A DNA stretch of 42,152 nucleotides from a virus: the IMG/VR virus record IMGVR_UViG_3300009082_000035, positions 1-42,152 of that record; one strand, given 5' to 3'. Positions within the stretch are counted from its first letter, which is position 1. The number at the start of each line of letters is the position of its first letter. The translations under genes were made by a program, and so were the position numbers. The notes under the pieces were generated by a model, which saw only the letters and a list, made by a program, of their open reading frames with translations, did no database searches and had not been told where the DNA came from. Positions 8,912 through 37,286 of the stretch are shown piece by piece.

Positions 8912-10351
8912 TTAAGAATTTGCATAAATATAAACTTGAACATTTTTAACAGCTAATGTGACTGAGGCATTTGCAGTAATTCCCCTTATAATCAAAGAAG
9001 TTATTGTTGCACTAGGGATAACAGCCGTCTTAGGACGAGGGTATGTACCAATACCCGAAGCGACCATAGTTCTATCAGGTTTCCAAGTAACCCAAGACCC
9101 AATGAAATTCATAGTATAATCTGTTTCCCCAACTTCAAATTCAAATTCAAAAGAACCTTGCTGTACTTCGTTGGTACTGGTAGTAGCTCCTATGCCATTT
9201 TGGGTATAGTCTGCTTCACTAACTACAGTAGCATTTATTTTTAAACCCAAAGCAGTTTCTGTGGCGGCCCCAGTAGTTTTTCTATATTTTCCTGTTACCC
9301 TGACTCTTGTCCCAGCAGGAATACTTAACCCAGAAATTGTCACTAGATCTGTGGCAGAAGTCGATGTTGTAGTTCTTTCTGTCGCATCTCCACCCACTCT
9401 AGTCAATCCAGAACTTTCAGCTCCACCAGTAGGACCTTGCGGACCAGTTGGTCCTTCAATCCCCTGCGGACCGGTTGGCCCTTCAATTCCCTGCGGACCG
9501 GTTGGACCTTCAGCTCCTTGTGGCCCAGTAGGACCCTCAATCCCTTGCGGCCCAGTAGGACCCTCAACCCCCTGCGGACCGGTTGGACCTTCTGCTCCAG
9601 TTGCTCCTTCTGGTCCAGTTATTCCTTCAGCCCCAGTAGGACCATCAGGCCCAGTTGCCCCGACATCTCCAGCTAAATTTATATTCCAGTCATTCTGGAT
9701 TCCAGCACCACCAATCCTATCTACATTTACAACTAAAGAACCACTACTGTAAGAAGTGACAACTCCTTCCATAAAATTAGATGAGTCAGCCTGAGATGAT
9801 ATTCTTACCCTAGCACCAGCAGAATAAGCTAATCCATTCTGAGTAGCAAAAGTTCTTGATGCCACTAAAATTTCAACTGCGCTTGTTGATGTAGCAAAAT
9901 ATCCAGGTCCGGTTGGGCCAGTGCTCCCCGTAGCTCCACCAGTAGGTCCTTGATTTCCAGTAGGTCCAGTCGCTCCTTCTGGCCCAGTTATTCCCTCTGG
10001 TCCTTGTGGCCCAGTAGGACCTTCTGGCCCAGTAGGACCTTCTGGCCCAGTAGGACCTTGATTTCCAGTTGGACCAGTGGAACCAGTATCACTTCCAGTT
10101 GCGCCTTGCGGTCCAGTAGGCCCCTCTGCTCCAGTTGGACCAGTGGGACCAGTTTCTCCGGTTTCCCCCGCAGCAGCTCCACTATCTACCCACGCCAAAG
10201 TTCCCTCATCCCAAACCCAAATAGTATCAGTAGAACCAACTATCGCAAAAGCTCCAGGAAAACCAGTAGGATAAGCCGTAGTAAGCGCTCCTGGGGTAGC
10301 AAAATATCCTAAGAAATTTGGATCGCCCATCATGCTGCTTAAATATGACAT
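8912..10351 (-). CDS. Large collagen-like fibre protein
   Basis: A 479-residue protein. Residues 1-60 hold a short beta unit with [16 protein letters not shown], seen in phage fibre and head-appendage proteins. Collagen-like Gly-X-Y arrays run at about 62-150 and 231-310. A globular beta domain (about 151-230) separates them. The final 165 residues form a C-terminal beta domain (from [13 protein letters not shown]) that probably trimerises and may bind a ligand. It would form a long trimeric rod. It lies between capsid and lysis genes, so head fibre and tail fibre are both possible. Confidence 0.75.
9422..9661 (-). repeat. Collagen-encoding DNA repeat, distal array
   Basis: Near-identical 18-27 base units, such as GGACCGGTTGGACCTTC with variants, encode [13 protein letters not shown] triplets. 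Several units are almost exact copies, so recent expansion or slippage is likely. Confidence 0.8.
9902..10168 (-). repeat. Collagen-encoding DNA repeat, proximal array
   Basis: Tandem units such as GGCCCAGTAGGACCTTCT encode [13 protein letters not shown] triplets near the N-terminus of the fibre. The array is less uniform than the distal one and includes imperfect triplets (GSDTGSTG). Confidence 0.75.
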
Positions 10352-17663: not shown

Positions 17664-18122
17664 TTATTGAGGTTTCTTTCGGTATTCTTTATTTTCGTGT
17701 CGTTTAATCCAATTACAGTTACAACATAAAATTTGATACCTTTTTTCCCCCTTTAAAAAACTTTTTAAAACGTTCGGATAATAACTTTTCCTGGATTGAA
17801 TTTTTCTTTCTTTTATTCCATCTCCATTGACATGATCTATCTGCAAAGCCCTATAGTCATTAAAACCACACTTAATACATTTTCCACCCATTCCGTCCAG
17901 TGTTTTCTTTCTTAATTCTATCCTTCTAATCCTGTTCCTGTCAATATGATTTTTTTCATAGCGGATTTCGTTTTCTCTGGCTTTTCCAGATTCTCTGTAT
18001 TGTTTTATGTATTTTTTTCTCTTATCTGACTTTTTAAATTTTTCAACACTTTTTCTCCATGCTTCTGTTTTCTTATAAGCTCTTTGATATTTTAAAATGT
18101 CTTGTGGGTTTTTATATGGCAT
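17664..18122 (-). CDS. HNH endonuclease (probable free-standing homing endonuclease)
   Basis: A 152-residue protein. Residues 1-75 are a very basic helical region. The HNH core follows: zinc pair C82/C85 (CIKCG), catalytic segment IDHVNGDG with Asp96-His97, then CCNCNWIKRHEN with C134, C136 and His142. It lies between large terminase and portal, a common landing place for mobile HNH genes. Alternatively, an HNH nuclease beside terminase can help packaging cleavage, as in some HK97-like phages. The 17-base gap after terminase contains ATAGTAT and ATACTAT around ACC, a small hairpin. Confidence 0.75.
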   Translation of the reverse strand: MPYKNPQDILKYQRAYKKTEAWRKSVEKFKKSDKRKKYIKQYRESGKARENEIRYEKNHIDRNRIRRIELRKKTLDGMGGKCIKCGFNDYRALQIDHVNGDGIKERKIQSRKSYYPNVLKSFLKGEKRYQILCCNCNWIKRHENKEYRKKPQ

Positions 18123-18139
18123 CTCTATAGTATACCATA

Positions 18140-19882
18140 CTATTGAGCTTCACCAAACATCGCTTTTCCTAAAGAGAACCCTTCTCGATCAGAAGAAGTG
18201 TCGACCCACTTCCCTTGCTCTTGAAGTATCGCATATCCAATAGCACCAGCCATAATGACATCGTCATTTTTGTTTGCGAGGGCCTCCGGGCGCCCCTTGG
18301 CGTTTCGAAGGAATGTAACCATCTCAGAAAGTATCGCAGTAGGGAATCCAGTATTTTTTCTCAGAAATACAGCTTTGAGCGCAGCCAGACAAAATGGTCT
18401 AGTTGAGCTGGTTGTCTTCCATCCAAAAAATTTAGTGACAGTTTTTGTAATATCATCGAATATTTTTCGATAATAAAGATTTAGGTACCCAAGCTTATCA
18501 AGCCCGTCATTTACCCAAAGACCATCCTTGTTACTTTCAATTCCTAGCAGTGCCCAATTAAAATATTTTCCAACATTAAATGCATCGGTGATAAATTCAT
18601 CGGGGGCAACTTGTGATTTATAGACTGCATCACATTCTTCTGTTTTGTGGTTAATGACATATAAAACTTGCGCATCTCCGTGAGCCAACCCTTCCGCGGT
18701 ATCTCCTCCAATAATATATTTTGTTCCAATTTCAGGTTTATTAAAAACCTCCAAGCGACCTGTTGATAACTCTTGAAAAACAAGTTCGCCTTTTTCGTTC
18801 GCAACCAGCTCACCTCTTGTTCCGTGCTTCGCAGTCTGTAACATAGAAAAAACTTTAGATGTTGGAAAGTAGGTTTGTCCGGTAGAAAGGAACGCTTCCT
18901 CTGGGGTGGTGGGGTACTCTTGGTGCAATCGATGAACTGAGTCAGTCGCACCCTTACCACCCATCTGAATAAATTTCATGTAATAATATGTTATTTCGCG
19001 GTCAGTCAAATTGTGTTCCTTCTGGTACTCAGCAAAATCAATTTCTCCAATTTCCATAGTTTCAACTGGAATATTCTCAGTAATTTTTTTCATTTCCATA
19101 TCGTCATACTGCCAGTTGTAAAAATGAGGCAGGAACATAACTCTCGATTTCATTGGAGTGATGGTGTCTCGAACCAGCCAGCTCTCTTGGAATATTTCGT
19201 AAAATCTTCCCGCCATACCTTCCGCAGTCGATTCAATAAAAATAAATCCATCAAAAGGAACAGCTGGGAAAGTATCTCCCTCTACCTGTGCAGCATTCTT
19301 TGGATATAGAACGCACATCTTAGCAAACTCAGAAATATGCACATAAAAATAAGTTCCAGATCTTCCGGATGCAGACACCTGGATGCTCGAGGTAGAACCA
19401 GCCTCGGGGCCATAATCAACCACCACCTGAATCTTTTTTGCTGAGTTTCGTTGTAATTTAAAAAATGCCCCCTTAATATCATCTGCCATGTTGCGGATAG
19501 CAAAATCAATCTTTCTGTCGAATATTTCTGTGGCATCCTGAACCCTGTGCGCGACAATCAATCCTTCTCTGTTTGTGTTAAAAAGAATTTCATCGAGAAT
19601 ATAAATATCAATAAAAGTAGTGAACCCAAGCTGACGAGATTTTAAAATGATATGCCTGTGAAATATGTGGGCAATCCCATCAACAACTTTCCCGATTAGA
19701 TAGTTTTCAAAAAAATGTTTCTGCGCCCGATTCATCTGAAATATCTCCTTGGTCCCATCCTTCGTAATAATCCAATAGAGATTGTCCATCCTCCAGCGCT
19801 TGTCTTTAATAAGATCAGGATTCTCCGTTAATTGAGCCACAATCTTTTCGTTATGTTGTTTTTGAAATTGAAAATTACTCAT
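18140..19882 (-). CDS. terL: Terminase large subunit (packaging ATPase/nuclease)
   Basis: A 580-residue protein. The ATPase part has a Walker A-like KSRQLGFT at residues 81-88, a Walker B-like segment YFYVHISEFA and the coupling motif ESTAEG. The nuclease part has GGDTAEG near residue 390, then GIESNKDG, then KNDDVIMAGAIGYAI, giving the spaced acidic residues of a RNase H-like fold. It cuts concatemeric DNA and pumps it through the portal. It overlaps the 43-residue gene before it by 8 bases, which suggests coupled translation. Confidence 0.85.
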   Translation of the reverse strand: MSNFQFQKQHNEKIVAQLTENPDLIKDKRWRMDNLYWIITKDGTKEIFQMNRAQKHFFENYLIGKVVDGIAHIFHRHIILKSRQLGFTTFIDIYILDEILFNTNREGLIVAHRVQDATEIFDRKIDFAIRNMADDIKGAFFKLQRNSAKKIQVVVDYGPEAGSTSSIQVSASGRSGTYFYVHISEFAKMCVLYPKNAAQVEGDTFPAVPFDGFIFIESTAEGMAGRFYEIFQESWLVRDTITPMKSRVMFLPHFYNWQYDDMEMKKITENIPVETMEIGEIDFAEYQKEHNLTDREITYYYMKFIQMGGKGATDSVHRLHQEYPTTPEEAFLSTGQTYFPTSKVFSMLQTAKHGTRGELVANEKGELVFQELSTGRLEVFNKPEIGTKYIIGGDTAEGLAHGDAQVLYVINHKTEECDAVYKSQVAPDEFITDAFNVGKYFNWALLGIESNKDGLWVNDGLDKLGYLNLYYRKIFDDITKTVTKFFGWKTTSSTRPFCLAALKAVFLRKNTGFPTAILSEMVTFLRNAKGRPEALANKNDDVIMAGAIGYAILQEQGKWVDTSSDREGFSLGKAMFGEAQ

Positions 19883-20008: not shown

Positions 20009-20479
20009 CTAAAAATCTAAGTCTGGGATACCCCCATCTTTGGATGTTTCACGAGTAACAACGGCCGGGGGGTTATTATTAATCGTCTGATTTTCAATTC
20101 GATTCATGATTACAGCCTTTAATTTATTCCCTTCTGGTGTCTGGTTTTTATTGGGAGCACGATGTTTTGCAAACTTATCCCAGGCTTGCGCTATCGCATT
20201 CATCGCCCCGTTTAAGTCTTTGTTTGAAAAATTCTTTAATCCACGAGCTTTGTACTCAGCCATCACTGCTAGGACCATGTTGTTTGATTCCGTAGCAAGC
20301 GCAATCACTGCATTCGAAAATCCTTCGGTGTTTTCTATTTTGTTTTCAACATTTGCTGCAATACTTGGAGCATATCCAACAGAAAGGGCAATGTCTTTCT
20401 TCGAGCGCCCTTGTCCATTCAAAAGTTTAGTAGCGTATGCGTATTGTTTGATAGTTGCCCCGTGCTTAGGTCTTTTCAT
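20009..20479 (-). CDS. terS: Terminase small subunit
   Basis: A 156-residue protein. The N-terminus looks like a DNA-binding helix-turn-helix (YAYATKLLNGQGRSKKDIAL, then SVGYAPSIAA). A central helical region (FSNAVIALATESNNMVLAVM) could be the oligomerisation domain, and the C-terminal 50 residues are disordered. Order, size and the HTH match small terminase, which recognises the packaging site and loads the large subunit. The match is by pattern. Confidence 0.7.
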   Translation of the reverse strand: MKRPKHGATIKQYAYATKLLNGQGRSKKDIALSVGYAPSIAANVENKIENTEGFSNAVIALATESNNMVLAVMAEYKARGLKNFSNKDLNGAMNAIAQAWDKFAKHRAPNKNQTPEGNKLKAVIMNRIENQTINNNPPAVVTRETSKDGGIPDLDF

Positions 20480-21372: not shown

Positions 21373-21467
21373 AAACGGGGCAGGGGGCAGATAGTTTTGA
21401 GAACTTTTATTTATTTAAAAATTTTCTATATAAAGTATAGGAAAATATCTGCCCCTCTGCCCCGTTT
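21373..21467. repeat. Long inverted repeat with GGGGCAG arms
   Basis: Arms at 21373-21393 and 21446-21467 are complementary over about 21 bases with a single inserted base. Each arm contains AAACGGGGCAG followed by GGGGCAGATA. The 52-base centre is very AT-rich (TTTATTTATTTAAAAATTTT). The DNA or RNA could form a large hairpin, and the centre would melt easily. Confidence 0.75.
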
Positions 21468-21542
21468 CATTTTAAGCCTTATTCTATATGGTCGGGGCAA
21501 GGGGCAGATGAAGTGGGGCAGGAAACATCTGCCCCAAAATAT

Positions 21543-21557
21543 CCTTATGCCATAAGG
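21543..21557. other. Short hairpin CCTTAT-GCC-ATAAGG
   Basis: A perfect 6-base stem with a 3-base loop lies between the second and third GGGGCAGAT pairs. GGGGCTTTTTT follows shortly on the plus strand, so it may contribute to weak termination. Confidence 0.35.
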
Positions 21558-21589
21558 AGGGGCTTTTTTAGGGGTTTTTGCTCGGAGGG

Positions 21590-21611
21590 TAAAAAATGGG
21601 CCTTCGGGCCC
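21590..21611 (-). terminator. Possible leftward terminator (GGGCC hairpin with T-run)
   Basis: GGGCC and GGCCC surround TTCG at 21598-21611. On the plus strand this is a UUCG tetraloop hairpin; on the minus strand the stem is followed by ATTTTTTA. It could block transcripts entering the GGGGCAGAT region from the right. Confidence 0.45.
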
Positions 21612-21694
21612 GGTTTTGGGGTTTTCGGGGCAGATAAACGGCATCTGCCCCGCTATCTGCCCCGCCCCCAATACCCCAAAATATACACATCTCA

Positions 21695-21756: not shown

Positions 21757-21765
21757 TTATCCACA
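21757..21765 (+). promoter_or_regulatory. DnaA box (TTATCCACA)
   Basis: An exact match to the strong bacterial DnaA box, within AAAAGTTATCCACACCCAC and 9 bases before a -35 hexamer. DnaA could act here as replication initiator, transcription regulator or both. Similar elements at 27040 and 34645 lie in the same place relative to their promoters. Confidence 0.6.
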
Positions 21766-21774
21766 CCCACACTA

Positions 21775-21804
21775 TTGACAGTGACAGTGACAGTGGTATA
21801 TACT
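21775..21804 (+). promoter_or_regulatory. Early promoter P1
   Basis: The -35 TTGACA (21775-21780) is a perfect match. The -10 is TATATA after 16 bases or TATACT after 18. The spacer is made of GTGACA repeats (GTGACAGTGACAGTGG), unlike the other two promoters. It faces the early genes starting at 21868. Confidence 0.65.
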
Positions 21805-21867
21805 TTCAATGTAGCCCCGGCCAGTCCCCGGATCTACAAAAATTTATAAGCATTATAAAAAAATAAA

Positions 21868-22173
21868 ATGCGAAAAATCACAAGCGAGGCGTGTCATGCA
21901 TTACAAAGTGGGTATAGATATAAGTCCGGCAATACTGAAGTTATAGCAGGGCTCGAGAATACTACAATGTATTTGCACGGCCATGCAATAGCAAAGATCA
22001 GCACAATATCGAGAGTGCTGGAAGTACAGTCAGCCGGCTGGGAGACGGCCACCACCAAGGAGCGATTAAATGGCCTTATCGGTGTACATATAGTACAAAA
22101 AGCCGGTCAATGGTATTTGAACGGCAAGAAGTGGGAAGACACATGCGAGTGGACGAAGGTAGAAGCAAATTAA
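21868..22173 (+). CDS. First early protein, unknown
   Basis: A 101-residue protein and the first gene after promoter P1. Short beta strands around TTMYLHGHAIAKIS are followed by SAGWETATTKERLNGL and a final beta pair with a Trp-rich end (GQWYLNGKKWED). Proteins with this AGW...TTKERLNGL pattern are, to my recollection, common as small early proteins of phages and plasmids, with no assigned function. Its place suggests it acts soon after DNA entry. Codons are GC-richer than in genes beyond 27 kb. Confidence 0.65.
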   Translation: MRKITSEACHALQSGYRYKSGNTEVIAGLENTTMYLHGHAIAKISTISRVLEVQSAGWETATTKERLNGLIGVHIVQKAGQWYLNGKKWEDTCEWTKVEAN

Positions 22174-22244: not shown

Positions 22245-22523
22245 ATGCAAAAATATTATATCTACATAGGATCGAACAACGAAACGCACCAGCTAGAGAG
22301 CGAGCAAGCTATAAGGACAATATCAAAGTACTTTGACGGCTTCACGGCCTATGAGGTGGTAGGATATTGGAAAGGATCTCAGGAGAAAACCCTAAAAGTG
22401 GAAATAGTCAGCGAAGGCCAGGGGGACACTGTGATAGTACGCATGATCAAGGAGCTAAAAACAAAACTCAGGCAAGACGCGATTATGCTAGAGAAAATTA
22501 ATAGCAATAGTGTATTTATATAA
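22245..22523 (+). CDS. Unknown early protein, small alpha/beta
   Basis: A 92-residue protein. The pattern strand (KYYIYIG), helix (ESEQAIRTISKYF), strand (FTAYEVVGYWKG), strand (TLKVEIVSEG) and helix (VRMIKELKTKLRQDAIM) suggests a ferredoxin-like fold. I recognise no family and no catalytic residues. It belongs to the run of small early genes. Confidence 0.6.
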   Translation: MQKYYIYIGSNNETHQLESEQAIRTISKYFDGFTAYEVVGYWKGSQEKTLKVEIVSEGQGDTVIVRMIKELKTKLRQDAIMLEKINSNSVFI

Positions 22524-25777: not shown

Positions 25778-26056
25778 ATGTCAAAAAAAATACCGAAGCG
25801 TTTTGTTTTGTGTCAGGGTTATGCCGGAGGAGTGAAGGCGATGATAGTCATCGGAGAGGAGCACAACGGCATGAATGTTGGAGAGATTGAGAAGCTAAAA
25901 GCCAAGCCGGGCTATAAGCCGGCTGTGTCTTATGTGCTTGAGCTTAAGGACATAGAGGATATCATCATGGAGTTGGTCGAGAAAAACGGATATACAATAG
26001 AGAAAACGAAGCGACAGAAATATCCGAGGATTAAAATCAATACATCCGATAAATGA
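25778..26056 (+). CDS. Unknown early protein
   Basis: A 92-residue protein. A beta N-terminal half (KRFVLCQGYAGGVKAMIVIG) is followed by an acidic helix (LKDIEDIIMELVEKNGY) and a basic end. It overlaps the next gene by 4 bases (ATGA). Confidence 0.55.
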   Translation: MSKKIPKRFVLCQGYAGGVKAMIVIGEEHNGMNVGEIEKLKAKPGYKPAVSYVLELKDIEDIIMELVEKNGYTIEKTKRQKYPRIKINTSDK

Positions 26057-26496
26057 AAACAATATACAAAAATAGGCAGGGGCTCGAGCTTACTTGTAAA
26101 GTGTGCGGTAAAAATTTCAAACACCTAGGGTCGCACATTTTTCACAGACATGGCATGACGGCCCGGGAGTACAAAGAGGCTTACGGTTTGCCGTATAAAA
26201 TGGGGTTGATATCCGTAGAGATTTTCCAAAAAAAGTCCGACAAGTTCGGAGAAAATAGAGAAAAATATACAAAAAATCTTTTGAAGGGAGGAGAGGCCAG
26301 GAGGTTCAGAAAAGGTCACGCAAATTTCGGACATCGAATAAGCGAGTGGGAGAGGAAAAGACAGATCAAACAGATAACAGAGGTCAACGAAGAAAGAAAG
26401 GGCAAGATGGAGCCGTGCCCGGTGTGTAAAATGACATTTAACTCAGTCGAGAGTCATTTGTATAACAAGCATGGATTATTAATTAGTAAATTGTGA
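26053..26496 (+). CDS. MucR/Ros-type zinc-finger regulator
   Basis: A 147-residue protein. Residues about 13-53 give LTCKVCGKNFKHLGSHIFHR followed by HGMTAREYKEAYGLP, the C2H2 and helix pattern of MucR/Ros regulators. A second C2H2-like finger occurs at the C-terminus (CPVCKMTFNSVESHLYNKHG). Between them is a basic region. It probably binds DNA. Its place late in early block 1 suggests control of phage or host promoters; candidate targets are the palindromes at 27020 and 34623, but this is untested. Confidence 0.75.
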   Translation: MKTIYKNRQGLELTCKVCGKNFKHLGSHIFHRHGMTAREYKEAYGLPYKMGLISVEIFQKKSDKFGENREKYTKNLLKGGEARRFRKGHANFGHRISEWERKRQIKQITEVNEERKGKMEPCPVCKMTFNSVESHLYNKHGLLISKL

Positions 26497-27182: not shown

Positions 27183-27803
27183 ATGGGATTAGAAAATAGA
27201 GAGGGAGGTAATTTTATAACAATCCTCAACGGCAAATTTTGTCAGCGTGTGGCTGAGAATACACCGGGGGCTGTTTCTCGAGTAAACAAGCTAGGTAAAA
27301 CAGTTTTTGAAAAGTTTTACGATAGCTTCACAGCTAAGTTGGTTAACATACGAACGCAAGACGGTGCGTATGGAAAAAATTGGTTGTTTGATTTTAAGGA
27401 TGGTGGAGAAGTCTATCATTTGCAATTAAGTTACAGCAACAGCTTTGCGACAGCACTTTTGAAAATGCTTCCAAACATTGACGTAACAAAAGAAATGAAG
27501 TTGTCTCCGAGCGTTAAAGAAGTTGATGGAAAAAACAAGTCATCCTTGTTTGTAAACCAGGATGGAGTTGCAGTTAAGCATGCATACACGAGAGAGAATC
27601 CAAACGGGATGCCTGAATTAAAATCCGTGAAGATAAAAGGGCAGGACATGTGGGATGACACAGACAGATTGGTTTTCTTACAAAATGTCGTGGACACTCA
27701 AATATTACCAAAGCTTCCAAAGGACGTAACACCGCCAGCTTCCGGGTCAGCCGATGAGCTTGCGAAGGAATTAGGTGCAGAGGGTGAGGATCAAGGGTTT
27801 TAA
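27183..27803 (+). CDS. Single-stranded DNA-binding-like protein
   Basis: A 206-residue protein and the first gene of the replication block. A beta-rich core spans about residues 10-100 (FEKFYDSFTAKLVNIR, then GKNWLFDFKDGGEVYHLQLS). The C-terminal 35 residues are disordered and acidic, ending GEDQGF. A beta core with an acidic tail ending in Phe is the design of phage and bacterial SSB proteins, whose tail recruits helicases and polymerases. It lies just ahead of nuclease, primase and helicase genes. No OB-fold alignment was done, so this is a structural guess. Confidence 0.5.
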   Translation: MGLENREGGNFITILNGKFCQRVAENTPGAVSRVNKLGKTVFEKFYDSFTAKLVNIRTQDGAYGKNWLFDFKDGGEVYHLQLSYSNSFATALLKMLPNIDVTKEMKLSPSVKEVDGKNKSSLFVNQDGVAVKHAYTRENPNGMPELKSVKIKGQDMWDDTDRLVFLQNVVDTQILPKLPKDVTPPASGSADELAKELGAEGEDQGF

Positions 27804-28305: not shown

Positions 28306-28648
28306 AAAATTAATACCTAAGTTATGTCAAAAGCATCTATGTGGGTGTTGGCGTGAAGCGCTTGGTTGCTTCAAGATAATCACCGAAGGAAAGAAGGGGT
28401 ACAGCAAACATCCAGCAACAAAAGAATATATCCACGCTATCAAAAGACTGTATATTATGTTGTATATTATCCGCCAAGAAATGTTAAAGAGGGGATATCA
28501 CCCCAAGGAACTTCCGAGATTTACTTTTATAACATCAGAAAAAGAACGTAGAAAAACCTGGCAAAGTTTAAAAGAACAGATAGAAGTATTAAAAGAAAAA
28601 AAGAAAACTAAGAAGTGGTGTAAGTGTCAGCCAAATGAAAAACAATAA
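28289..28648 (+). CDS. Pyrimidine-dimer DNA glycosylase-like protein
   Basis: A 119-residue protein. The start MRIWHEKLIPKLCQKHLCGC followed by WREALGCF and HPATKEYIHAIKRLY matches the phage/bacterial family related to T4 endonuclease V (DenV). In that family an N-terminal amine and a Glu (here the WRE Glu) excise pyrimidine dimers from UV-damaged DNA, and the length near 120 fits. RQEMLKRGYHPKELPRF is also usual there. The basic tail is longer than necessary. It would protect phage DNA from UV damage. Confidence 0.65.
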   Translation: MRIWHEKLIPKLCQKHLCGCWREALGCFKIITEGKKGYSKHPATKEYIHAIKRLYIMLYIIRQEMLKRGYHPKELPRFTFITSEKERRKTWQSLKEQIEVLKEKKKTKKWCKCQPNEKQ

Positions 28649-29096
28649 TAAAAAAGCAAAAAGAAAATGGGTATTAAAAAATCCAAATTATCAAAAAGAA
28701 TGGAGGATTAAAAACCTTGACAAAGTAAAAGCTCAGCAAAAAATATATCGCTTAAAGAATAAAAAACAGATAGCTTTAAGAAATTCTATATGGCAAAAAG
28801 AGTATGAAAGTAAGAATCCTCATAAAAAACAGCGAAGATATTTTTTAACGAAGGTAGCAAACATTGGAGTAGTTTTATCTTTTGAGGAATATAAAAATAT
28901 GACTATTAATCAGAACGGACTATGTGCTATTTGCGGAAATACTGATAACGGCAGAGAATTGTCTATCGATCATTGTCATAAAACAAATAAAGTGAGAGGT
29001 CTTTTGTGCAAAAAATGTAACTCAGCGATTGGTTTCTTAAGTGACGATATTGGATTATTAGAAAAAGCTATTATGTATCTCAAGAAATATCAATGA
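28635..29096 (+). CDS. Recombination endonuclease VII (HNH-type resolvase)
   Basis: A 153-residue protein. Residues 1-70 are a very basic helix. The core has CAICG at 97-101, LSIDHCHKTNKVRGLLCKKC at about 109-128, and NSAIGFLSDD. The order Cys97-Cys100, Asp112-His113-His115, Cys125-Cys128-Asn129 is the endonuclease VII signature (T4 gp49 family), which cuts Holliday junctions and branched DNA before packaging. A mobile HNH gene of the same superfamily is the alternative. It overlaps both neighbours by a few bases. Confidence 0.75.
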   Translation: MKNNNKKAKRKWVLKNPNYQKEWRIKNLDKVKAQQKIYRLKNKKQIALRNSIWQKEYESKNPHKKQRRYFLTKVANIGVVLSFEEYKNMTINQNGLCAICGNTDNGRELSIDHCHKTNKVRGLLCKKCNSAIGFLSDDIGLLEKAIMYLKKYQ

Positions 29097-31456
29097 AAAA
29101 AGGAGAAGAAAAATTTTTAAATAGTTTCCCAAACGCAAAGTTTAGGTATTTAGATTTGGCTGGAAAAGGAAAGCCAGCTGTTTCGTCAGCTGTTTTGCGC
29201 CCAGATTTAAATAAGAATGGATATGACAGCTTTTTCTCAGTGAATGGTTTTGAGGGAGATGATGCAAAAAAAGATAAATGTATTAGTTTGAACTCTTTTT
29301 TTATCGATATAGATAAAAAATTAACAAAAGAAGAAATAGAAAAAATTAAAGGAATACTCGAACCTACTTTCATCATTGAAACTTTTCATGGATTCCATTT
29401 TTATTGGTTGTTGGACGAACCAATTTTGAAAGATGAGATTTTTGGAGAAGAAACATGGGAAGACTTAGTTGAGAGGTGGGAACGAATAGAGCAAAGTATC
29501 GTAAATACGATTCAAGATGCAGACAAGGTAGTAAAAGACTTAACTAGAATTTTAAGAGTCCCAGATACAATTTACTGGAAAAAAACAAATGGTGAATTTA
29601 AAATAAAAGGACTACATAAAAATCTTTCAGCAAATTATTCTATGAGCCAAATGGAGGAAGCTTTTCCTCCAGTACTTGAGCTTACTACCCCTGCTTTTTC
29701 GAAAACTCCACAAGGAGAAAATATGAAAAAGTTTGCAGAAGCTGAGAAGAAAGATTTTTTTGATAGAGTAAACGAGGAATATCCGGTAGACGAGAGGCCC
29801 AGCTTTCAAAAATTAATCTCCGGAACACCAGAAAGTTTACCTCCAAATAACAAGTCCCGCAACGAGGCGCTTCTTGTGACTGCCACATTGATGCGACAAG
29901 CTGGATGGAAAAAAGAAGAAGCTATCGAACAAATAAACAAAGTTGGCTGGCACGGCATCGAGAAAGAGGCTAGTGGCAAACAAGAAATTCTTAATACTAT
30001 AAACTCTGCTTATAATTCTGGATATACCTACTCATACAAAAACGAGATTATTGCTTGGAACATGACCCCTAAGGAGCAACAAGAAATATCGAAAGCCTAC
30101 ACTGCGGTCGCAAAACAGAGGAAGGAAGTAGACAAGACTCGCTTCTCAAATTACGAATACGAGATAGCCTCTCGATATCCATATCTTAAAAAGAATGAAG
30201 TGGGAATAATTTTTAACTATATTGACGGTGTTTACAAGATGCTTTCGGATCAGGAAATTTCTGATATTGTTTTGAATGCATTGTACGAGGATATGCTTTG
30301 GGGGTATCGTACTAAAAAAAATGTCAGCGACAAAGTGGCATGTTTGATTTCAATCATCCCAGATTTAGAGCTAACCGATGATCATGGATATATTTTTAAT
30401 GTAAAAAATGGGTTGTTAAATATTGTAAAAAAGGAACTACTTCCGCACACCCCAGACTTTGTTTCATTGGTCCAGTCTCCGGTAGAGTACAACCCTGGAG
30501 CTACATGCCCTACATGGGAGGCGTGTTTGGATGCATGGATGGATGGTCCGGAATCTGAGCAGAAGAAATTAATTCTCCAGGAGTTTGCTGGGTATCTTCT
30601 ATCATCATCGATGGTTTATGCGAAGGCCTTATTTTTAGTTGGTGACGGAGGAAACGGAAAATCTACCTTTGCGGACACTCTTGGAATGGTTATTGGCGAT
30701 GCCGGGACTTCGCGCATTGATCTCGAAGACTTATACTCGATGTTCGGGCTTAAGGGACTTATCGGAAAGAGACTTAATATCATCGAGGAGGTGTCTGGAA
30801 ACTACTACCAGTCCCACAAGCTCAAGAAATTAATCTCCGGGGAGGAGCTCACCATCAACATGAAGTACAAGGACCAATTTAAGTTTAAGCCACAGGCAAA
30901 ATTTATCTTTGCGGTTAACACAATGCCAAGGGTGGACGATAGCTCTACTGCGACAGAGAGAAGAATCGCGGTGGTCCAATTCAACAATAACTTTCGAGAC
31001 AATCCAAATACAATGCTTCGTTTCAGCAATGGTCTTCTTGCGCAAGAACTTTCAGGAATCCTTAATTGGATGGTAGATGGAGCTAATCTTTTGAGAAAAC
31101 AAAAAGCATTTACTATCACCCAAGAACAACAGTTATCACTACTTGAGTACCGGGAGGAAAATTCGTCAGTGGAAGGGTTTATCGGGGAGTGTTTAGATTT
31201 CGAAGAAGGAGTTGTCACCAGCGCTCGAGAGCTTTACGAAGAGTATAAACAATATTGTATTAAGGACGGAAGAAAGTTTAAAGGCAATATAGCCTTCGTT
31301 AAAGAGATGAAATCTTACGGAAAGCGACACAATAAATTTCAGCAAACAGTGAGGAAAAATGGTCACGAGCCTTCGAGTTTTGAGGGGGTTGTAATTAATA
31401 AAAGTTGGTCGAACTATTCTGATGTCGGACAGAATAGATTAAATAGAGAATTTTAA
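29093..31456 (+). CDS. Replicative primase-helicase (AEP/RepB-like primase plus D5-type SF3 helicase)
   Basis: A 787-residue protein. Residues about 60-170 are a primase-polymerase core: SFFIDID supplies the metal-binding acids, followed by GFHFYWLLDEP and LTRILRVPDT. Residues about 235-300 form a PriCT-like helical domain (KSRNEALLVTATLMRQAGW). The C-terminal half is a D5/P4-type SF3 helicase: Walker A GDGGNGKST near 517, Walker B-like NIIEEVSG, then KFIFAVNTMPRVDD with the sensor Asn and TERRIAVV. It should prime and unwind at the origin, so this phage probably starts its own replication. No DNA polymerase is visible in this window. Confidence 0.85.
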   Translation: MKKGEEKFLNSFPNAKFRYLDLAGKGKPAVSSAVLRPDLNKNGYDSFFSVNGFEGDDAKKDKCISLNSFFIDIDKKLTKEEIEKIKGILEPTFIIETFHGFHFYWLLDEPILKDEIFGEETWEDLVERWERIEQSIVNTIQDADKVVKDLTRILRVPDTIYWKKTNGEFKIKGLHKNLSANYSMSQMEEAFPPVLELTTPAFSKTPQGENMKKFAEAEKKDFFDRVNEEYPVDERPSFQKLISGTPESLPPNNKSRNEALLVTATLMRQAGWKKEEAIEQINKVGWHGIEKEASGKQEILNTINSAYNSGYTYSYKNEIIAWNMTPKEQQEISKAYTAVAKQRKEVDKTRFSNYEYEIASRYPYLKKNEVGIIFNYIDGVYKMLSDQEISDIVLNALYEDMLWGYRTKKNVSDKVACLISIIPDLELTDDHGYIFNVKNGLLNIVKKELLPHTPDFVSLVQSPVEYNPGATCPTWEACLDAWMDGPESEQKKLILQEFAGYLLSSSMVYAKALFLVGDGGNGKSTFADTLGMVIGDAGTSRIDLEDLYSMFGLKGLIGKRLNIIEEVSGNYYQSHKLKKLISGEELTINMKYKDQFKFKPQAKFIFAVNTMPRVDDSSTATERRIAVVQFNNNFRDNPNTMLRFSNGLLAQELSGILNWMVDGANLLRKQKAFTITQEQQLSLLEYREENSSVEGFIGECLDFEEGVVTSARELYEEYKQYCIKDGRKFKGNIAFVKEMKSYGKRHNKFQQTVRKNGHEPSSFEGVVINKSWSNYSDVGQNRLNREF

Positions 31457-31685: not shown

Positions 31686-31924
31686 CCGAACCGCAAAAAC
31701 ATATTTATAACTTGACGATAGAGAATCAAAAGCAAAGGATTCATATACCTTACTATACCGGACCAAAGAAAGGTGAGCCGATGATGTTGAAACCCGACAC
31801 CATCATGGTGAGAAGTAAAAAAGAATGGGATATGGCACAAGAAATATTGAACAGTAAACCAGAGGATGCAATATGGAAAAGATTTGCAAAGACACTTAAT
31901 AAAATTTTATTTAGAAATTTATGA
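31682..31924 (+). CDS. Unknown small protein
   Basis: An 80-residue protein. The first half is beta-like (KQRIHIPYYTGPKKGEP) and the second half helical (KKEWDMAQEILNSKPEDAIW). It starts and ends with ATGA overlaps. No family is recognised. Confidence 0.5.
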   Translation: MTEPQKHIYNLTIENQKQRIHIPYYTGPKKGEPMMLKPDTIMVRSKKEWDMAQEILNSKPEDAIWKRFAKTLNKILFRNL

Positions 31925-32661
31925 AAGAAATTTGGAAAACAATCGAAGGTTGGCCATATCTCGTGAGTAATCACGGGAGGATTAAGAGAATTCTAGATCT
32001 TAAGGACATAAAGCCACAAGTACATTATAAGGGACACTTGTTTCTGCACCTATCAAGAGAAAAAGAATATAAAAAGTTTTTTGTTCACCGGCTCGTAGCA
32101 ATGGCCTTCATTCCAAATCCAGAAAATAAAGAATTCGTGGACCACATCGATGAAAACAAGCAAAATAATCATGTAAAAAATCTCCAATGGAAAACGCTTA
32201 AGGAAAATACCCAGTCATATCATGAAAATAAAAAAGCAAGAATAAAAAGTATGAATAAATTTTTTAAAAAAGCAATACATTTCAAAGGCAAACACTATTA
32301 CGGGTCACAGTTGCCGTCTGAGATACCTCGAGGAGCTGTAGGTGACTGCTTTGATCATTGTCTTGCTGTAGCCATGATGTTTCCAGAATATCAATATGTC
32401 GAAGGGTTGGCTTTTATAAATAAAAGATGGATATATCATGCATGGCTTGCAAAGGATGGAATTAGTGCCTTTGACCCCACATGGAGAGCGGTCGACAAGG
32501 ATGGAAAAGAAGTTGCTTTGAGTATGGTCCACTATATCGGAGTAAAAATGGATAAAAAATTAGTGATGGAATTTGTTCTAGCAACCGGTTATAAAGCTGT
32601 GCTTAAAAATTATTGGAGGAAAAAAGATTTAGCAGAAAAAATTTATGAAACCGCTTTATAA
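31921..32661 (+). CDS. NUMOD4-HNH homing nuclease fused to papain-like domain
   Basis: A 246-residue protein. Residues 1-25 match NUMOD4 (WKTIEGWPYLVSNHGRIKRI). Residues about 53-90 are an HNH nuclease: VHRLVAMAF with His56, EFVDHIDENKQNNHVKNLQW with Asp74, His75 and His84. Residues about 120-246 form a different domain with GDCFDHC (Cys143), IYHAWLA (His173) and AFDPTW (Asp185), in the order of a papain/transglutaminase-like triad. An internal ATG at 32251 (Met111) could start the second domain alone. One explanation is an HNH gene that landed in front of a cysteine-enzyme gene and stayed in frame. Confidence 0.65.
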   Translation: MKEIWKTIEGWPYLVSNHGRIKRILDLKDIKPQVHYKGHLFLHLSREKEYKKFFVHRLVAMAFIPNPENKEFVDHIDENKQNNHVKNLQWKTLKENTQSYHENKKARIKSMNKFFKKAIHFKGKHYYGSQLPSEIPRGAVGDCFDHCLAVAMMFPEYQYVEGLAFINKRWIYHAWLAKDGISAFDPTWRAVDKDGKEVALSMVHYIGVKMDKKLVMEFVLATGYKAVLKNYWRKKDLAEKIYETAL

Positions 32662-33913
32662 CCACCAAAAAGAAATAATTTCCGACAACAAACTACAACA
32701 TGGTATTTTTCAAGGTACCGGCTCTGGTAAAACTCGAACAGCGCTTGAGCTAGCAGAGGAGGAGATATTGATCATGATGCCGAAGCAACAATTCCTAGAT
32801 AAGACATGGGAAGCTAATGCAGAAAAATTTGAAATCAAAAAAGATTTTCAGACAATTTCGAAAGAAACTTTTAGACGTGATTGGGACACGTTGCCGGGGT
32901 GCAAGACTTTCATCATCGATGAGTGCCACAACAATCTTGGTGTACTTCCGGAGTACCGACAAAGGAACAAAGTCCAGATTCCAAAAACTTCTCAAATATT
33001 CGAAGCCACACTTTTATATATTAAAAAATGGAAACCAAAAAGAATTTATCTCTGTTCAGCTACTCCGGTGTCAAAACCAATGAACATGTGGGCCATCGCA
33101 AAGTTGTTTGGAGTGGACTGGAATTTCGAAAAATTTAGAGAAACATTCTATTTTGCCAGGGCTATAGGCCGAAGGCAGATATGGCTCCCCAAGAAGGACC
33201 AGGAAACGAAACAACGACTAGCCCTATTGGTCCAAAGATTTGGGTATACGGGGGCGCTTAATGACTTCGTGGATGTACCCGAGCAAACTCACAAAGAGGT
33301 GGAAATTGAGCTGACAGATGCCCAGAAAGAGGCTATAAAGGCATTAAAGGAGACAGAGGCTGATCCACTCGTTAGGAGGGCAAGACAGCGTACAATCGAA
33401 AATGGCGTGTTATACGGGCAAGATATCGAGGAGGTTGGGGTTGGGGAGGAGCGGATGGTCAAAAAGACTACTATATTCCCTTCCAGGAAGATAGACTACA
33501 TCCTCGAAAGAGCTATCGAATTTCCAAAACTTTTAATTTTTGCAAACTACACCGCGCAGATAAATGAGATTACCAGAGTCTTGAGAGAGGAGGGATACAC
33601 TGTTTCAACACTTACCGGAGCCACGAAGGATAGGACTTTCATTAAAAAAGTCGATGAGTCCGATGAGCCACACATAATTGTGGCCCAGAGCGGAGTATCC
33701 GCTGGGTACGAGTTGCCGAGTTTTCCATGCGTAATTTACGCATCGAAGTCGTGGCAATATGTGCATTACGAGCAATCCCTTGGTCGAGTATTGCGCATTA
33801 ATAAATTAAAAAAGAATCTCTACATTCACCTCGTTGTAAAAGGTTGCGATGGGGACTGCCATGAGGCGATCATGTCAGGTGTAGATTTTCAAGAGAAATT
33901 AAGTTTGTTGTAA
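32645..33913 (+). CDS. SF2 DEAD/DECH-type DNA helicase
   Basis: A 422-residue protein. Motif I GTGSGKT is at residues 24-30, motif II DECH at 92-95 and motif III SATPVSK near 140. In the C-terminal half are LLIFANYTAQINEI, an SGVSAGYELPSF segment and motif VI (QSLGRVLRINK). This is a complete SF2 core without extra nuclease domains, as in phage replication/recombination helicases. It overlaps the preceding gene by 17 bases. It probably unwinds or remodels recombination intermediates. Confidence 0.8.
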   Translation: MKPLYNHQKEIISDNKLQHGIFQGTGSGKTRTALELAEEEILIMMPKQQFLDKTWEANAEKFEIKKDFQTISKETFRRDWDTLPGCKTFIIDECHNNLGVLPEYRQRNKVQIPKTSQIFEATLLYIKKWKPKRIYLCSATPVSKPMNMWAIAKLFGVDWNFEKFRETFYFARAIGRRQIWLPKKDQETKQRLALLVQRFGYTGALNDFVDVPEQTHKEVEIELTDAQKEAIKALKETEADPLVRRARQRTIENGVLYGQDIEEVGVGEERMVKKTTIFPSRKIDYILERAIEFPKLLIFANYTAQINEITRVLREEGYTVSTLTGATKDRTFIKKVDESDEPHIIVAQSGVSAGYELPSFPCVIYASKSWQYVHYEQSLGRVLRINKLKKNLYIHLVVKGCDGDCHEAIMSGVDFQEKLSLL

Positions 33914-34116: not shown

Positions 34117-34290
34117 ATGAGACGTTTATCAATCAAACCACCTAAAAATGATCATTCTGTTCGTTGCAAAGATTGTGCAGCGAGGTTGGTTCCTCTTGAG
34201 GGTGAAAAACCTATCTGGTGGATTCAAATAAGTCGGAATGTTTATTGTGAAAAATGTTATGAAAGAAAACAAAAGTCAAATAATATTTAA
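34117..34290 (+). CDS. Small zinc-ribbon protein
   Basis: A 57-residue protein chosen from ATG 34117, 1 base after the previous stop. CKDC near residue 17 and CEKC near 46 give two zinc pairs around a Trp-rich middle (KPIWWIQISR). The longer frame from 34084 would overlap the previous gene. It overlaps the resolvase-like gene by 32 bases. Confidence 0.55.
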   Translation: MRRLSIKPPKNDHSVRCKDCAARLVPLEGEKPIWWIQISRNVYCEKCYERKQKSNNI

Positions 34291-34627
34291 TCAGTATCTT
34301 CGACAGAAGCGCATGTATGGCTTTTTTGAGCTTAAGGTGGCCAAGGGTGGCACTTTTAATCTCAATGACATCGAAGACAATCAGTACGAAGGATTGCAGG
34401 CAACGGAGAAGAATGGTTTGGTGTGGAAATTAAGTGACGAGGATCGAAGGAAAAAACCATGTGACACTTTATGCATCCCCCCGCTCCCATCTTATCTCGT
34501 GATCCAGTTTGGAAAAGATTTTTATTTAATTAGGTTTCAGTCAGTTGTAAATTTCAAGGAATCCGGGGTGATAAGTATTAGCTTAAAGGTAGCCAAAGAG
34601 ATTGCGGAGATGGTTATACATACTTAA
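34259..34627 (+). CDS. PD-(D/E)XK nuclease, RecU/resolvase-like
   Basis: A 122-residue protein. YGFFELKVAKGGTFNLNDI is the central clue: Glu and Lys in FELK fit the ExK part of a PD-(D/E)XK nuclease, and the following FNLNDIEDNQYEGLQ resembles the downstream region of RecU-like resolvases. Strands with LVIQFGKDFYLIRF follow. The upstream Asp is not clear, since the N-terminus is short. I chose ATG 34259; an ATG at 34238 lies deeper in the zinc-ribbon gene. It is the last gene of block 2. Confidence 0.55.
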   Translation: MKENKSQIIFNQYLRQKRMYGFFELKVAKGGTFNLNDIEDNQYEGLQATEKNGLVWKLSDEDRRKKPCDTLCIPPLPSYLVIQFGKDFYLIRFQSVVNFKESGVISISLKVAKEIAEMVIHT

Positions 34628-34730: not shown

Positions 34731-34883
34731 ATGAAAGAAACATTAGTTAGGATAAATTCAAGAATCACTCCGGAACAACATAAGTTTACAAAAGCGGAGG
34801 CGAAGAAATTAAAAATCAGCGAGGGGCAAATGCACCGGGTCGTATTTGATTTTTATATTAAAAACCATAACAAAAATAAATAA
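34731..34883 (+). CDS. 50-residue ribbon-helix-helix-like DNA-binding protein
   Basis: A 51-codon frame right after the possible leader peptide. The strand TLVRINSRITPEQ followed by helices KFTKAEAKKLKISEGQMHRV and VFDFYIKNH is typical of RHH/CopG proteins, which bind DNA as dimers through the strand. It is the first gene after promoter P3, so autoregulation is plausible. It is one of two candidate regulators for the TTTCAGCTGAA palindromes, with the MucR-like protein. Confidence 0.6.
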   Translation: MKETLVRINSRITPEQHKFTKAEAKKLKISEGQMHRVVFDFYIKNHNKNK

Positions 34884-34885
34884 CC

Positions 34886-35179
34886 ATGGGAAATTTATAC
34901 GAGGAATATGCATTATTGGAGAGCCAAGAAAAAGACATCAAGCTCAAGAAAGAACAGCTTCGCCCTCTCATAATGCAACAGATGATAGCTAATGGACAAA
35001 AAAAGGTCGATACCGGAGTTGGAAGTTTTAGTGTGAACAAATTGAAGAAATGGACCTATCCAGAACGCATTACGAAAATGGAGGAAGATTTCAAAGCAGA
35101 GAAAGCAAAGACACAAAGCACCGGAGAGGCCACTTATGTCGAGGAGGACTCACTACGATTTACAATAGTAAAACTATAA
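34886..35179 (+). CDS. Unknown coiled-coil protein
   Basis: A 97-residue protein. The N-terminal 35 residues form a charged helix (ALLESQEKDIKLKKEQLRPL). A beta part (VDTGVGSFSVNKLKKWTYPE) and an acidic helix follow, and the end is beta (YVEEDSLRFTIVKL). The layout recalls small phage DNA-metabolism accessory proteins, but no name can be given. It starts 2 bases after the ribbon-helix-helix gene. Confidence 0.55.
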   Translation: MGNLYEEYALLESQEKDIKLKKEQLRPLIMQQMIANGQKKVDTGVGSFSVNKLKKWTYPERITKMEEDFKAEKAKTQSTGEATYVEEDSLRFTIVKL

Positions 35180-35183
35180 TCGC

Positions 35184-35460
35184 ATGACACAAGTAACAAA
35201 CCTGAAGATGCACCGAAAGTATGAAGGAAGAAACAGAGATGGTAGTTTAATTCTTAGAAAAAAAACCGCTAGAGTTTCCTCCGACAGATTACGAGTTAGA
35301 TTGTGGAGTTCAAAAATTCAACATAAAAGTAAGTCCAGGCCAGTTGATTAATAAAATAAAAATGTGTAAAAAATTATTAAAAGCTAACTTTAACAAAAAC
35401 AATGAACAAGAAAAAAATAGATTCGTCAGTAAAGGTTTTAAAGGTCAAAACCCCTACTAA
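35184..35460 (+). pseudogene. Small gene with probable frameshift at an A-run
   Basis: ATG 35184 opens a frame of 55 residues ending at 35351. After residue 27 that frame becomes Arg/Ser-rich and loses protein-like character. The +1 frame from the A8 run (35258-35265) continues instead with PLEFPPTDYELDCGVQKFNI and then KVSPGQLINKIKMCKKLLK, to a stop at 35460. Removing one A joins the halves. The join would overlap the next gene by 59 bases. The cause may be a sequencing or assembly indel, programmed slippage, or a decayed gene. Function unknown. Confidence 0.45.
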
Positions 35461-36019
35461 GCCAAAGAAAGAAAACTTGGTTCCCAAGGTGGTCGCACCT
35501 AAATACACTTTAGTAACTTTTTCAGTCAAGGCAACAATCCCTACGCAGATGTATGGGAATATCATGCCAGAGATAGTGGTAACAGCAAAAACAATTGAAG
35601 ATGCAAAAGCGATAGTCATGCCGGCTATCGAGGGGCTTTATGTCGCGTATGCTGAAAAGAATCGTGATGGAAGCGCTGTATCTTTTATGAGCAAAGCAAA
35701 CGTAACTGTGACTGAAAAAATTGTTCCACAACATGTCCCAGCTCCAGCCGTTGTAAACACCCCAGCTCCAACCGTTATGGGTGCTCCAGCGCCAGCAAAG
35801 GTACAGACACCAGCACAGGCAAGTGTTGAGGCTCTAGCAAATGACCTTGCAAAGTCAGTAGCATACACCAAGGCAGAAAATGCAATTAAAAATTCCACAA
35901 GTCTTGAGGCTATCAACATGATCGAAGACCAGATTCAAAAGTCGGTAAAACTCACTGCCGATGAGAAGCCGATGCTATTAACAGAGGTTCTTAAAAAGCG
36001 AAAAGAATTCGCATTGTAA
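35402..36019 (+). CDS. Unknown protein with Pro/Ala linker
   Basis: A 205-residue protein. A basic start (1-30) precedes a small alpha/beta domain (about 33-105; YTLVTFSVKATIPTQMYGNI, then IEDAKAIVMPAIEGLYVAYA). A Pro/Ala-rich linker follows (about 110-145), then a helical C-terminal domain. No family is recognised. The linker suggests two independent domains joined flexibly. Confidence 0.55.
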   Translation: MNKKKIDSSVKVLKVKTPTKPKKENLVPKVVAPKYTLVTFSVKATIPTQMYGNIMPEIVVTAKTIEDAKAIVMPAIEGLYVAYAEKNRDGSAVSFMSKANVTVTEKIVPQHVPAPAVVNTPAPTVMGAPAPAKVQTPAQASVEALANDLAKSVAYTKAENAIKNSTSLEAINMIEDQIQKSVKLTADEKPMLLTEVLKKRKEFAL

Positions 36020-36023
36020 TTTT

Positions 36024-36824
36024 ATGAAATTCTCATTATTTGGAAAAAATGTATTTGAATTTTCTTCTCGTGGGCAATCAGAACCAATGGTTTATAATGC
36101 CTTACAGTCTATTGAGAAATCAAAATTTCTTCCAGACTTTCATACGATGCGTGAGTATCGTAATGATAATGATGTAGCCTGGATAGCCGTGCCTGATATT
36201 GGTAGTTCAACTTCAGCTTCAGTGTCAACTGGAACCAGGATGATTGCTGTTCAAAAAGAAGAAAAAGCATTGAAAGAAAAATTCAAACTTACTCCTAAAA
36301 AAGTATTTGAATTAAAATTCCTAAACAAAGAAAATTTCAAAATTAATGTTGATAAAGATTATGTTTTAACACAGATATCTGTATTCAAAGACAAGCTAAA
36401 TCTCATTAAGGCATCAGAATTCGACATGAGTAGAGGCACAAATGAAATTGCAAGCATCTTAATGCGATTAGAAAATCGAAAGAAATACGAAAGCGTAAAA
36501 ACCTTCTTTGAAGATTTTGCTTATACTACTACTGATCGTATTGAAAAAGTTATCAAAAATCACTCTCATTTACAGTTGGGAAAAATTGAAGAATTTATTG
36601 CTGATATGCCAAAGGAAGCTACTGATGCAATGAAGGCATACAATTCAAAATGTGAAGATATTTGTGGAAAGCGCGCAGTGTTCTATATCATTGCTGACAA
36701 GAAAGATTTCAAAAAAACCCAGCAAAGACGAGATCCAATATTATTAGCACAATCCCCATTCTCACATACTTGGCAGATACTGGGTGCTTGGGATGAGGAG
36801 ATGATGTTCTTAGAAGAATTATAA
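36024..36824 (+). CDS. Unknown large protein of block 3
   Basis: A 266-residue protein with a mixed N-terminus (MKFSLFGKNVFEFSSRG, then AWIAVPDIGSSTS) and a long helical middle (VKTFFEDFAYTTTDRIEKVI). A C-terminal part has CEDICGKRAVFYIIADKKDF and ends EEMMFLEEL. No catalytic motif is visible. It precedes three small genes with short gaps, so they are probably co-expressed. Function unknown. Confidence 0.55.
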   Translation: MKFSLFGKNVFEFSSRGQSEPMVYNALQSIEKSKFLPDFHTMREYRNDNDVAWIAVPDIGSSTSASVSTGTRMIAVQKEEKALKEKFKLTPKKVFELKFLNKENFKINVDKDYVLTQISVFKDKLNLIKASEFDMSRGTNEIASILMRLENRKKYESVKTFFEDFAYTTTDRIEKVIKNHSHLQLGKIEEFIADMPKEATDAMKAYNSKCEDICGKRAVFYIIADKKDFKKTQQRRDPILLAQSPFSHTWQILGAWDEEMMFLEEL

Positions 36825-36826
36825 TT

Positions 36827-37006
36827 ATGAAAAACAAACAAAAATTAACTCCAAAAGAATCAGTAATCAAAGGTCTTGAAACTCGAAAGAAAAATCTTGA
36901 GAAAAAGCAGACTGCATTGGTTACTAAATTCTACTCAGACAAAAAAGAAATTCTCGCGGATCTTCAAGTCGTGAATATCCAATTACAAGCCTTAAGGAAA
37001 AAATAA
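36827..37006 (+). CDS. 59-residue coiled-coil protein
   Basis: A 60-codon frame 2 bases after the previous stop. It is nearly all charged helix (VIKGLETRKKNLEKKQTALV). The next ATG follows its stop directly. Probably a small assembly or binding protein; family unknown. Confidence 0.5.
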   Translation: MKNKQKLTPKESVIKGLETRKKNLEKKQTALVTKFYSDKKEILADLQVVNIQLQALRKK

Positions 37007-37285
37007 ATGAGACAAAGAATATACTTAAGAGTTGCGAGAAAAGGGGCATACGGACGAGTGAAAGTTAATGCCTCAACTAAGTCTAGCGAAGATCCAATAT
37101 ACCAACAAGGCTATGGTTCGAAAGAGGCGCTTCCTACTGTTGGCTTTGCAGTCGACTTTGAAATTCCAGATCAGTTATTCTCCAAGGCCTCTGTTGTTGT
37201 CGCTACAATTAATATCCAAACTAAAGATGCAGTTATTCTAACAGGAATGCCTGTACCTGCTAAGAAACAAAAAAATGCAAAGTAA
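37007..37285 (+). CDS. Unknown beta-rich small protein
   Basis: A 92-residue protein with strands RIYLRVARKGAYGRVKVNAS, then VGFAVDFEIPD, then SVVVATINIQTKDAVIL, and a basic tail (AKKQKNAK). No family is recognised. It overlaps or abuts the next gene depending on the start used. Confidence 0.5.
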   Translation: MRQRIYLRVARKGAYGRVKVNASTKSSEDPIYQQGYGSKEALPTVGFAVDFEIPDQLFSKASVVVATINIQTKDAVILTGMPVPAKKQKNAK

Positions 37286-37286
37286 A

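Follow-up and report, generated by a model that had tools for sequence, protein, structure and literature searches.

A mirror-symmetric array of short boxes as the probable replication origin of a group of uncultured phages

In this work we have investigated a cluster of short repeated boxes in the genome of an uncultured virus and asked which protein might read them, and to what end. The window, by which we mean the whole 42,152-bp record analysed, has no terminal repeats, and the cluster sits in the non-coding gap which separates its divergent late and early operons. A first-pass annotation had described seven exact copies of GGGGCAGAT in this gap and had offered three explanations for them: an origin with initiator-binding iterons, a packaging site read by terminase, or a hairpin-based RNA switch. 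Is the array the place where replication begins, the place where packaging begins, or a control element of the operons that it separates?

The box array and its setting

All seven exact copies were found where the annotation had placed them, on the plus strand at 21384, 21501 and 21627 and on the minus strand at 21447, 21527, 21643 and 21655. The whole window holds eight copies, a number reached in none of 100 dinucleotide shuffles, in which 0.28 are expected, and 5000 shuffles of the intergenic region never gave more than one copy against the seven observed. A count of the motif beyond the array had been proposed earlier; within the window it gave a single exact copy outside, at 20673, within a 73-aa open reading frame for which no relative was found among the 17 related records compared. 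Four variant boxes had been overlooked, GGGGCAGGG (21377+), GGGGCAGAG (21455-), GGGGCAAGG (21494+) and GGGGCAGGA (21515+), and once they are added the complete array comprises 11 boxes on both strands between 21377 and 21663. Their order is + + and - - flanking an AT-rich core, next + + + -, and last + - -. In module A the left arm (21373–21393, plus strand) is formed by the overlapping boxes GGGGCAGGG (21377) and GGGGCAGAT (21384), and the right arm (21447–21467, minus strand) by ATCTGCCCC (21447–21455) and the second box GGGGCAGAG (21455–21463). The core between them (21394–21445), a candidate melting element, is 85% AT, in accord with the very AT-rich centre noted before. The two arms had also been noted, but they are offset by one base, their boxes being 7 bp apart on the left and 8 bp apart on the right. 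The second module (21494–21535) consists of GGGGCAAGG at 21494, GGGGCAGAT at 21501 and GGGGCAGGA at 21515, all on the plus strand, and the minus-strand box at 21527; the third (21627–21663) has a plus-strand box at 21627 and minus-strand boxes at 21643 and 21655, a '+ - -' layout which is seen again in most relatives. The spacers of the inverted pairs are indeed 54, 17 and 7 bp, but the pairs, thought to be nested, actually lie side by side.

The array region also contains a palindrome, CCTTATGCCATAAGG (21543–21557), which includes CCTTATGCC, the reverse complement of the GGCATAAGG-type box of relatives; it is possibly a relic of an older box type. Between the box modules there is a terminator-like hairpin, GGGCCTTCGGGCCC (21598–21611), whose T run is on the minus strand and which may keep late-strand transcription off the origin.

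About 100 bp from the array is a consensus early promoter, TTGACA-N18-TATACT, preceded at a distance of 18 bp by a perfect DnaA box, TTATCCACA, with GACAGT repeats in the spacer (21757–21809, plus strand). For 14 of 33 arrays, where 0.3 would be expected, the same DnaA box is found on the early strand, either inside the array or at most 700 bp to its right, and in relatives a TTGACA...TATAAT promoter often comes after it. Where the window has GACAGT repeats, GACACC repeats are seen in many relatives. A role of the neighbouring DnaA box in the origin is conceivable.

The late genes run leftward (TerL, 18140–19882; the TerS candidate, 20009–20479 on the minus strand; portal; capsid) and the window phage has a full set of structural genes. 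The early genes run rightward from 21868 and include an SSB-like protein (27183–27803, plus strand), a primase-helicase of 787 aa with D5_N, DUF5906/SF3 and Pox_D5 matches (29093–31456, plus strand), an SF2 helicase (32645–33913) and a resolvase-like protein (34238–34627). The SSB-like protein, found in 18 of 18 records compared, has an acidic tail ending in F and, judged from this C-terminal tail, is likely to be part of the replicon. GC skew flips sign at the array, but it is confounded by gene orientation and was therefore dropped as evidence for an origin. The long contigs of relatives are circular permutations of one gene order, relative to which the window is short of a few kb between its two ends.

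Several other genes caught our attention. HNH-like endonuclease frames, recognised by eye from translations (17664–18122, 28635–29096 and 31921–32661), are likely homing endonucleases; one is directly beside TerL and another directly before the primase gene. The first early genes (21868–22173, 22245–22523 and 26053–26496) gave a Kyano_Gp96-like protein, an S-adenosylmethionine lyase match, which is weak and below the cut-off, and a Ros/MucR zinc-finger regulator. The structural region encodes collagen-like proteins with GPTGPTG repeats (5574–5969 and 8912–10351), probably virion fibres. When bacterial and archaeal genomes were searched with TerL, only one contig was found, 5.7 kb long and binned as Dehalococcoidia (JAUUZT010000063.1, with a TerL relative at 68%, no other GTDB contig having a close one); this is a weak lead, too little to name a host.

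Conserved geometry in related phages

About 100 contigs were gathered through TerL, primase and SSB searches, and in around 35 relatives an array is present at the same place, most relatives with enough sequence having 6–16 boxes there. The box type differs between phages and agrees within one: GGGGCATAAG, GGGACATAA, GTGGCAGGA, AGTGACATAAC, ACCAACATAAG, ACGGCACAAG and others were found, with a common [AG]C core usually followed by A. The boxes of one genome thus change their sequence together at a fixed geometry, and the arrays pass the test proposed at the outset, that pair geometry should be kept while sequence changes. Over 35 records the spacings peak at 7–8 and 10–12 bp for boxes on the same strand, at 19–20 and 29–30 bp for convergent boxes and at 44–46 bp for divergent ones. 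A typical layout, that of L034, is 0+ 11+ 30-, then 74+ 82+ 167- 175-, then 221+ 240- 251- and finally 296+; those of L083, L166, L026 and L056 are nearly the same. The window and its closest relatives also have the central module and the '+ - -' module, but arranged in another order. The spacer between facing box pairs is more AT-rich than the surrounding ±500 bp in every one of 25 phages, with a mean of 82% against 64%. An assembly error as the cause of the array is excluded, because the same geometry occurs in dozens of independent contigs.

Our initial box finder overlooked the arrays of L161, L057 and L247, and a geometry-guided finder recovered all three. With the latter, a clear array was not found in some primase-bearing phages, such as L169 and L025. 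Three phages (L032, L033 and L044) have no inverted boxes and carry 10–13 tandem 12-bp direct repeats, GTGTGGTAAAGC-like, about 1.4–1.55 kb upstream of TerL together with two DnaA boxes; perhaps these are a swapped, plasmid-like origin. When all viral contigs were searched for closely spaced pairs of boxes, 35 hits were obtained, about the rough chance estimate, and these were set aside.

The primase-helicase as candidate reader of the boxes

Which protein follows the boxes as they change? In the records compared, the core early genes include no dedicated initiator besides the primase-helicase, and the most likely reader is this AEP/SF3 protein of the phage itself. Its sole sequence match in the PDB is 7OLA/7OM0, of which we take 7OLA to be SaPI5 Rep. 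The C-terminal domain (residues 664–787; 31082–31453, plus strand) was modelled in isolation with AlphaFold (pLDDT 84), and the model places residue 736 in a recognition helix (732–746) and residues 756–758 at the tip of a beta-hairpin, the wing. The best solved match of the domain is the P4 origin-binding domain 1KA8 (Z 9.4, rmsd 2.6 Å over 87 residues), so that the model has the winged-helix fold of P4 origin binding; RFX5 and RFX1 are level with 1KA8 as structural matches, all of this being similarity of fold only. In RFX1 the base contacts are made by the wing, which fits a box code borne by the wing. The title of a paper cited in PMC10516667 presents RFX1 as a new mode of DNA binding by a winged helix.

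We then compared the box bases with 482 variable columns of the primase-helicase in the 23 phages which have both an array and a full primase. A plain mutual-information scan of all proteins was dominated by lineage-specific columns; box-class tests, together with a tree and permutations, took its place. For box bases 2–4, residue 756 ranks first of the 482 columns, 757 third and 758 fifth; residue 758 ranks first for base 2, and the helix residue 736 first for base 7. The wing SGH goes with GGGAC boxes in five of five cases, the wing N[GN][HK] with GGGGC boxes in six of six, and S at residue 757 with T at box base 2 in five of five. Natural examples are L018 (wing SGH, box GGGAC), L011 (NGH, GGGGC) and L056 (HSN, GTGAC). 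A max-statistic permutation gave a family-wise p of 0.004 for residue 756; this permutation ignores relatedness, which is acceptable because the box classes cluster little on the primase tree. Indeed, on a tree built without the winged-helix domain the classes are distributed almost at random, and kinship therefore does not explain the match of wing and box. GGGAC needs at least four independent origins on that tree, each time with the wing SGH. The wing of L161, RTSGH, had been tabulated before any array was recognised in this phage, and the array found later carries GGGACATA boxes. When 12 proteins were scanned, with n of at least 18 for each of 2033 columns, primase residue 756 again came first for bases 2–4 and 758 first for base 2; a low-complexity protein (35402–36019) scores higher than the primase columns, with small samples (n = 13–15). 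The link of residue 736 with base 7 was matched or exceeded by other proteins in this cross-protein scan, base 7 being confounded by clade, and that part may therefore be kinship. The wing NGK goes with two different boxes (L012 and L125).

We are inclined, with modest confidence, to see here a simple code which has evolved repeatedly: three residues at the wing tip, in a winged helix of RFX/P4 type, would set the box of a mirror-symmetric origin (SGH for GGGAC, NGH for GGGGC, a middle S for T at base 2). The replicons of sister phages would thereby be orthogonal, and the wing and all of the roughly ten boxes would have to switch together.

Alternative readings, known origins and significance

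Could the array instead be an operator, at which some regulator of the phage, perhaps the primase-helicase itself, governs transcription from the divergent early and late promoters, while replication starts elsewhere? Its position between divergent operons, so near a consensus early promoter (about 100 bp), would suit such a role, and initiators often autoregulate from their own iterons. However, no separate regulator gene is common to all relatives compared, and three traits are those of an origin: the likely reader is a replicative helicase, the core is AT-rich and the boxes show mirror symmetry. We consider an operator in place of an origin unlikely; a dual role as operator and origin is possible, and box binding may also tune the early promoter.

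It is very unlikely that headful packaging starts at the array, with the boxes as a pac site read by the neighbouring TerS. Some pac sites, for example that of phage P1, are arrays of short elements, the TerS gene is only about 0.9 kb away, and the circularly permuted contigs of relatives are compatible with headful packaging. However, the helix-turn-helix of TerS is near-identical in phages with quite different boxes (L049 vs L056), TerS columns are weakly coupled with the boxes, the best ranking 52nd (bases 2–4) and 55th of 2301, and the contig breakpoints of relatives do not cluster at the array. Natural swaps point the same way. The contig G017 combines an array of standard geometry with a primase 62% identical over residues 5–663; neither TerL nor TerS of the window phage's family was found in it, its portal is a distant one, and beside the array lies a different terminase; the missing piece of its primase wing was not found in the contig, the other contig end included. 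Conversely, G018 has TerL (54%), portal (62%) and TerS (38%) of this family, but no array above background and no primase of the window phage's type. In the usual place of the D5 primase-helicase, beside the same SF2 helicase, G018 has a VapE-like helicase with PriCT_1 (L266:18403–19971), an initiator swap within one phage lineage. From this double dissociation it follows that the array goes with the primase-helicase and not with the terminase, which together with the constant TerS helix-turn-helix disfavours a packaging site. Neither the co-occurrence with terminase nor the covariation with TerS that would mark a pac or cos site was found, and the earlier suggestion of a site read by terminase is contradicted. 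In several phages an additional several hundred bases interrupt the TerL match or lengthen it (L069, L081, L086 and G030, the contig of L127, at 34794–37370, where it is one open frame of 882 aa); these are possibly inteins or homing inserts in the terminase.

The convergent pairs are complementary and remain so as the sequence changes, as would be expected of transcript stem-loops serving in attenuation, antitermination or RNA stability. Yet same-strand and divergent pairs are spaced as precisely as convergent ones, the spacings step by about one helical turn, the bases of the boxes vary with the wing of a DNA-binding domain, and an Rfam scan of the window gave no match at gathering thresholds. 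That direct, convergent and divergent pairs are all in helical phase points to a protein on duplex DNA; an RNA switch is not needed, and we consider it extremely improbable. GC-rich inverted repeats within an AT-rich region might also recall a mobile palindromic element, REP or MITE-like, which came to lie here by chance, but there is a single exact copy elsewhere in the window, and dozens of phages share place and geometry despite changed sequence, so that the conserved position already refutes this practically negligible alternative.

The array, its fixed geometry, the concerted drift of its boxes, the AT-rich core, the covariation of wing and box and the linkage to primase rather than terminase are established here, and an origin with initiator-binding iterons, as one of the first suggestions had it, is strongly supported by the geometry, core, covariation and primase linkage. 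We conclude that the array is very probably the phage's origin of replication, its boxes of about 11 bp being half-sites for the winged-helix domain of its own primase-helicase, of which paired hexamers would melt the AT-rich core. Physical binding, double-hexamer loading, melting and bidirectional firing are proposed from work on P4 and on SaPI/PICI elements (PMC4234260, PMC7581432, PMC6092414). We hypothesize that each box (CGGGGCAGATA in the window) would be bound by one C-terminal domain, the wing tip (756–758) reading its 5' half and recognition-helix residue 736 its 3' half. With boxes set whole helical turns apart and grouped as mirror images to either side of the core, the primase-helicase would be gathered into two oppositely facing SF3 hexamers, and these would melt the core, move apart and prime both forks. 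The forks would travel outward, each in the same direction as the early or late operon on its side.

To say that no such named element exists, as the first-pass annotation did, is too strong, because the P4 and PICI origins are of the same kind. Like the protein studied here, P4 alpha is a primase-helicase with a C-terminal winged helix, which in P4 binds the origin repeats (PMC4234260) and here is predicted to do so. However, P4 alpha has a bacterial TOPRIM-type primase (PMC4234260), whereas the nearest solved relative here, the SaPI5-type Rep, is of AEP type, and the P4 box sequence differs from that of the window phage. The Reps of PICI and SaPI elements, including SaPI5 (7OLA), and SCCmec Cch2 have a self-loading SF3 helicase of the D5 class, as here. 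In the PICI/SaPI Rep family the C-terminal domain recognises the origin iterons, apparently as two hexamers (PMC7581432), and two iteron sets flank an AT-rich region (PMC7581432, PMC6092414), a layout stated to occur in no other known bacterial replicon (PMC6092414). Origins of PICIs lie directly 3' of rep, whereas here the array, between divergent operons, precedes the primase gene by about 7.4 kb; nor is the window phage a satellite lacking capsid and packaging genes, and it is thus no PICI. Several marks of the origin of a self-loading SF3 initiator are present: box sets flanking an AT-rich region, an encoded SF3/D5 helicase with a putative C-terminal origin-binding domain, and initiator and boxes which change together as a cognate pair. 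The replication proteins of pRN1 and Bordetella phage BPP-1 likewise combine AEP, SF3 and winged helix, but there a long stem-loop 3' of the gene is the proposed origin (PMC4234260), in contrast to a box array. Iteron plasmids share initiator boxes, an AT-rich region and a DnaA box near the repeats (found for 14 of 33 arrays here), but have an unrelated initiator and tandem direct iterons, which we found only in L032, L033 and L044, in place of inverted, mirror-arranged boxes. In the origins of SV40 large T and papillomavirus E1, short boxes in inverted arrays load SF3 double hexamers; their origin-binding domain is N-terminal and not a winged helix, and the likeness is one of analogy only.

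The kind of origin is therefore known already from P4 and the PICIs. New are its occurrence in complete phages at a distance from the rep gene, the geometry of several box groups in mirror symmetry and the covarying wing–box code; in a search of the open-licence literature we found no paper describing the array, this geometry or this covariation. For a whole group of uncultured phages, the origin can be placed and the initiator named purely from sequence. Moreover, these phages offer a natural series of matched initiator–origin pairs in which few wing residues seem to set DNA specificity, a readable protein-to-DNA code of box and helicase changing together. The series shows how box geometry may place SF3 double hexamers, and it makes testable a long-standing puzzle of origins, namely how an initiator and about ten dispersed boxes switch specificity together.
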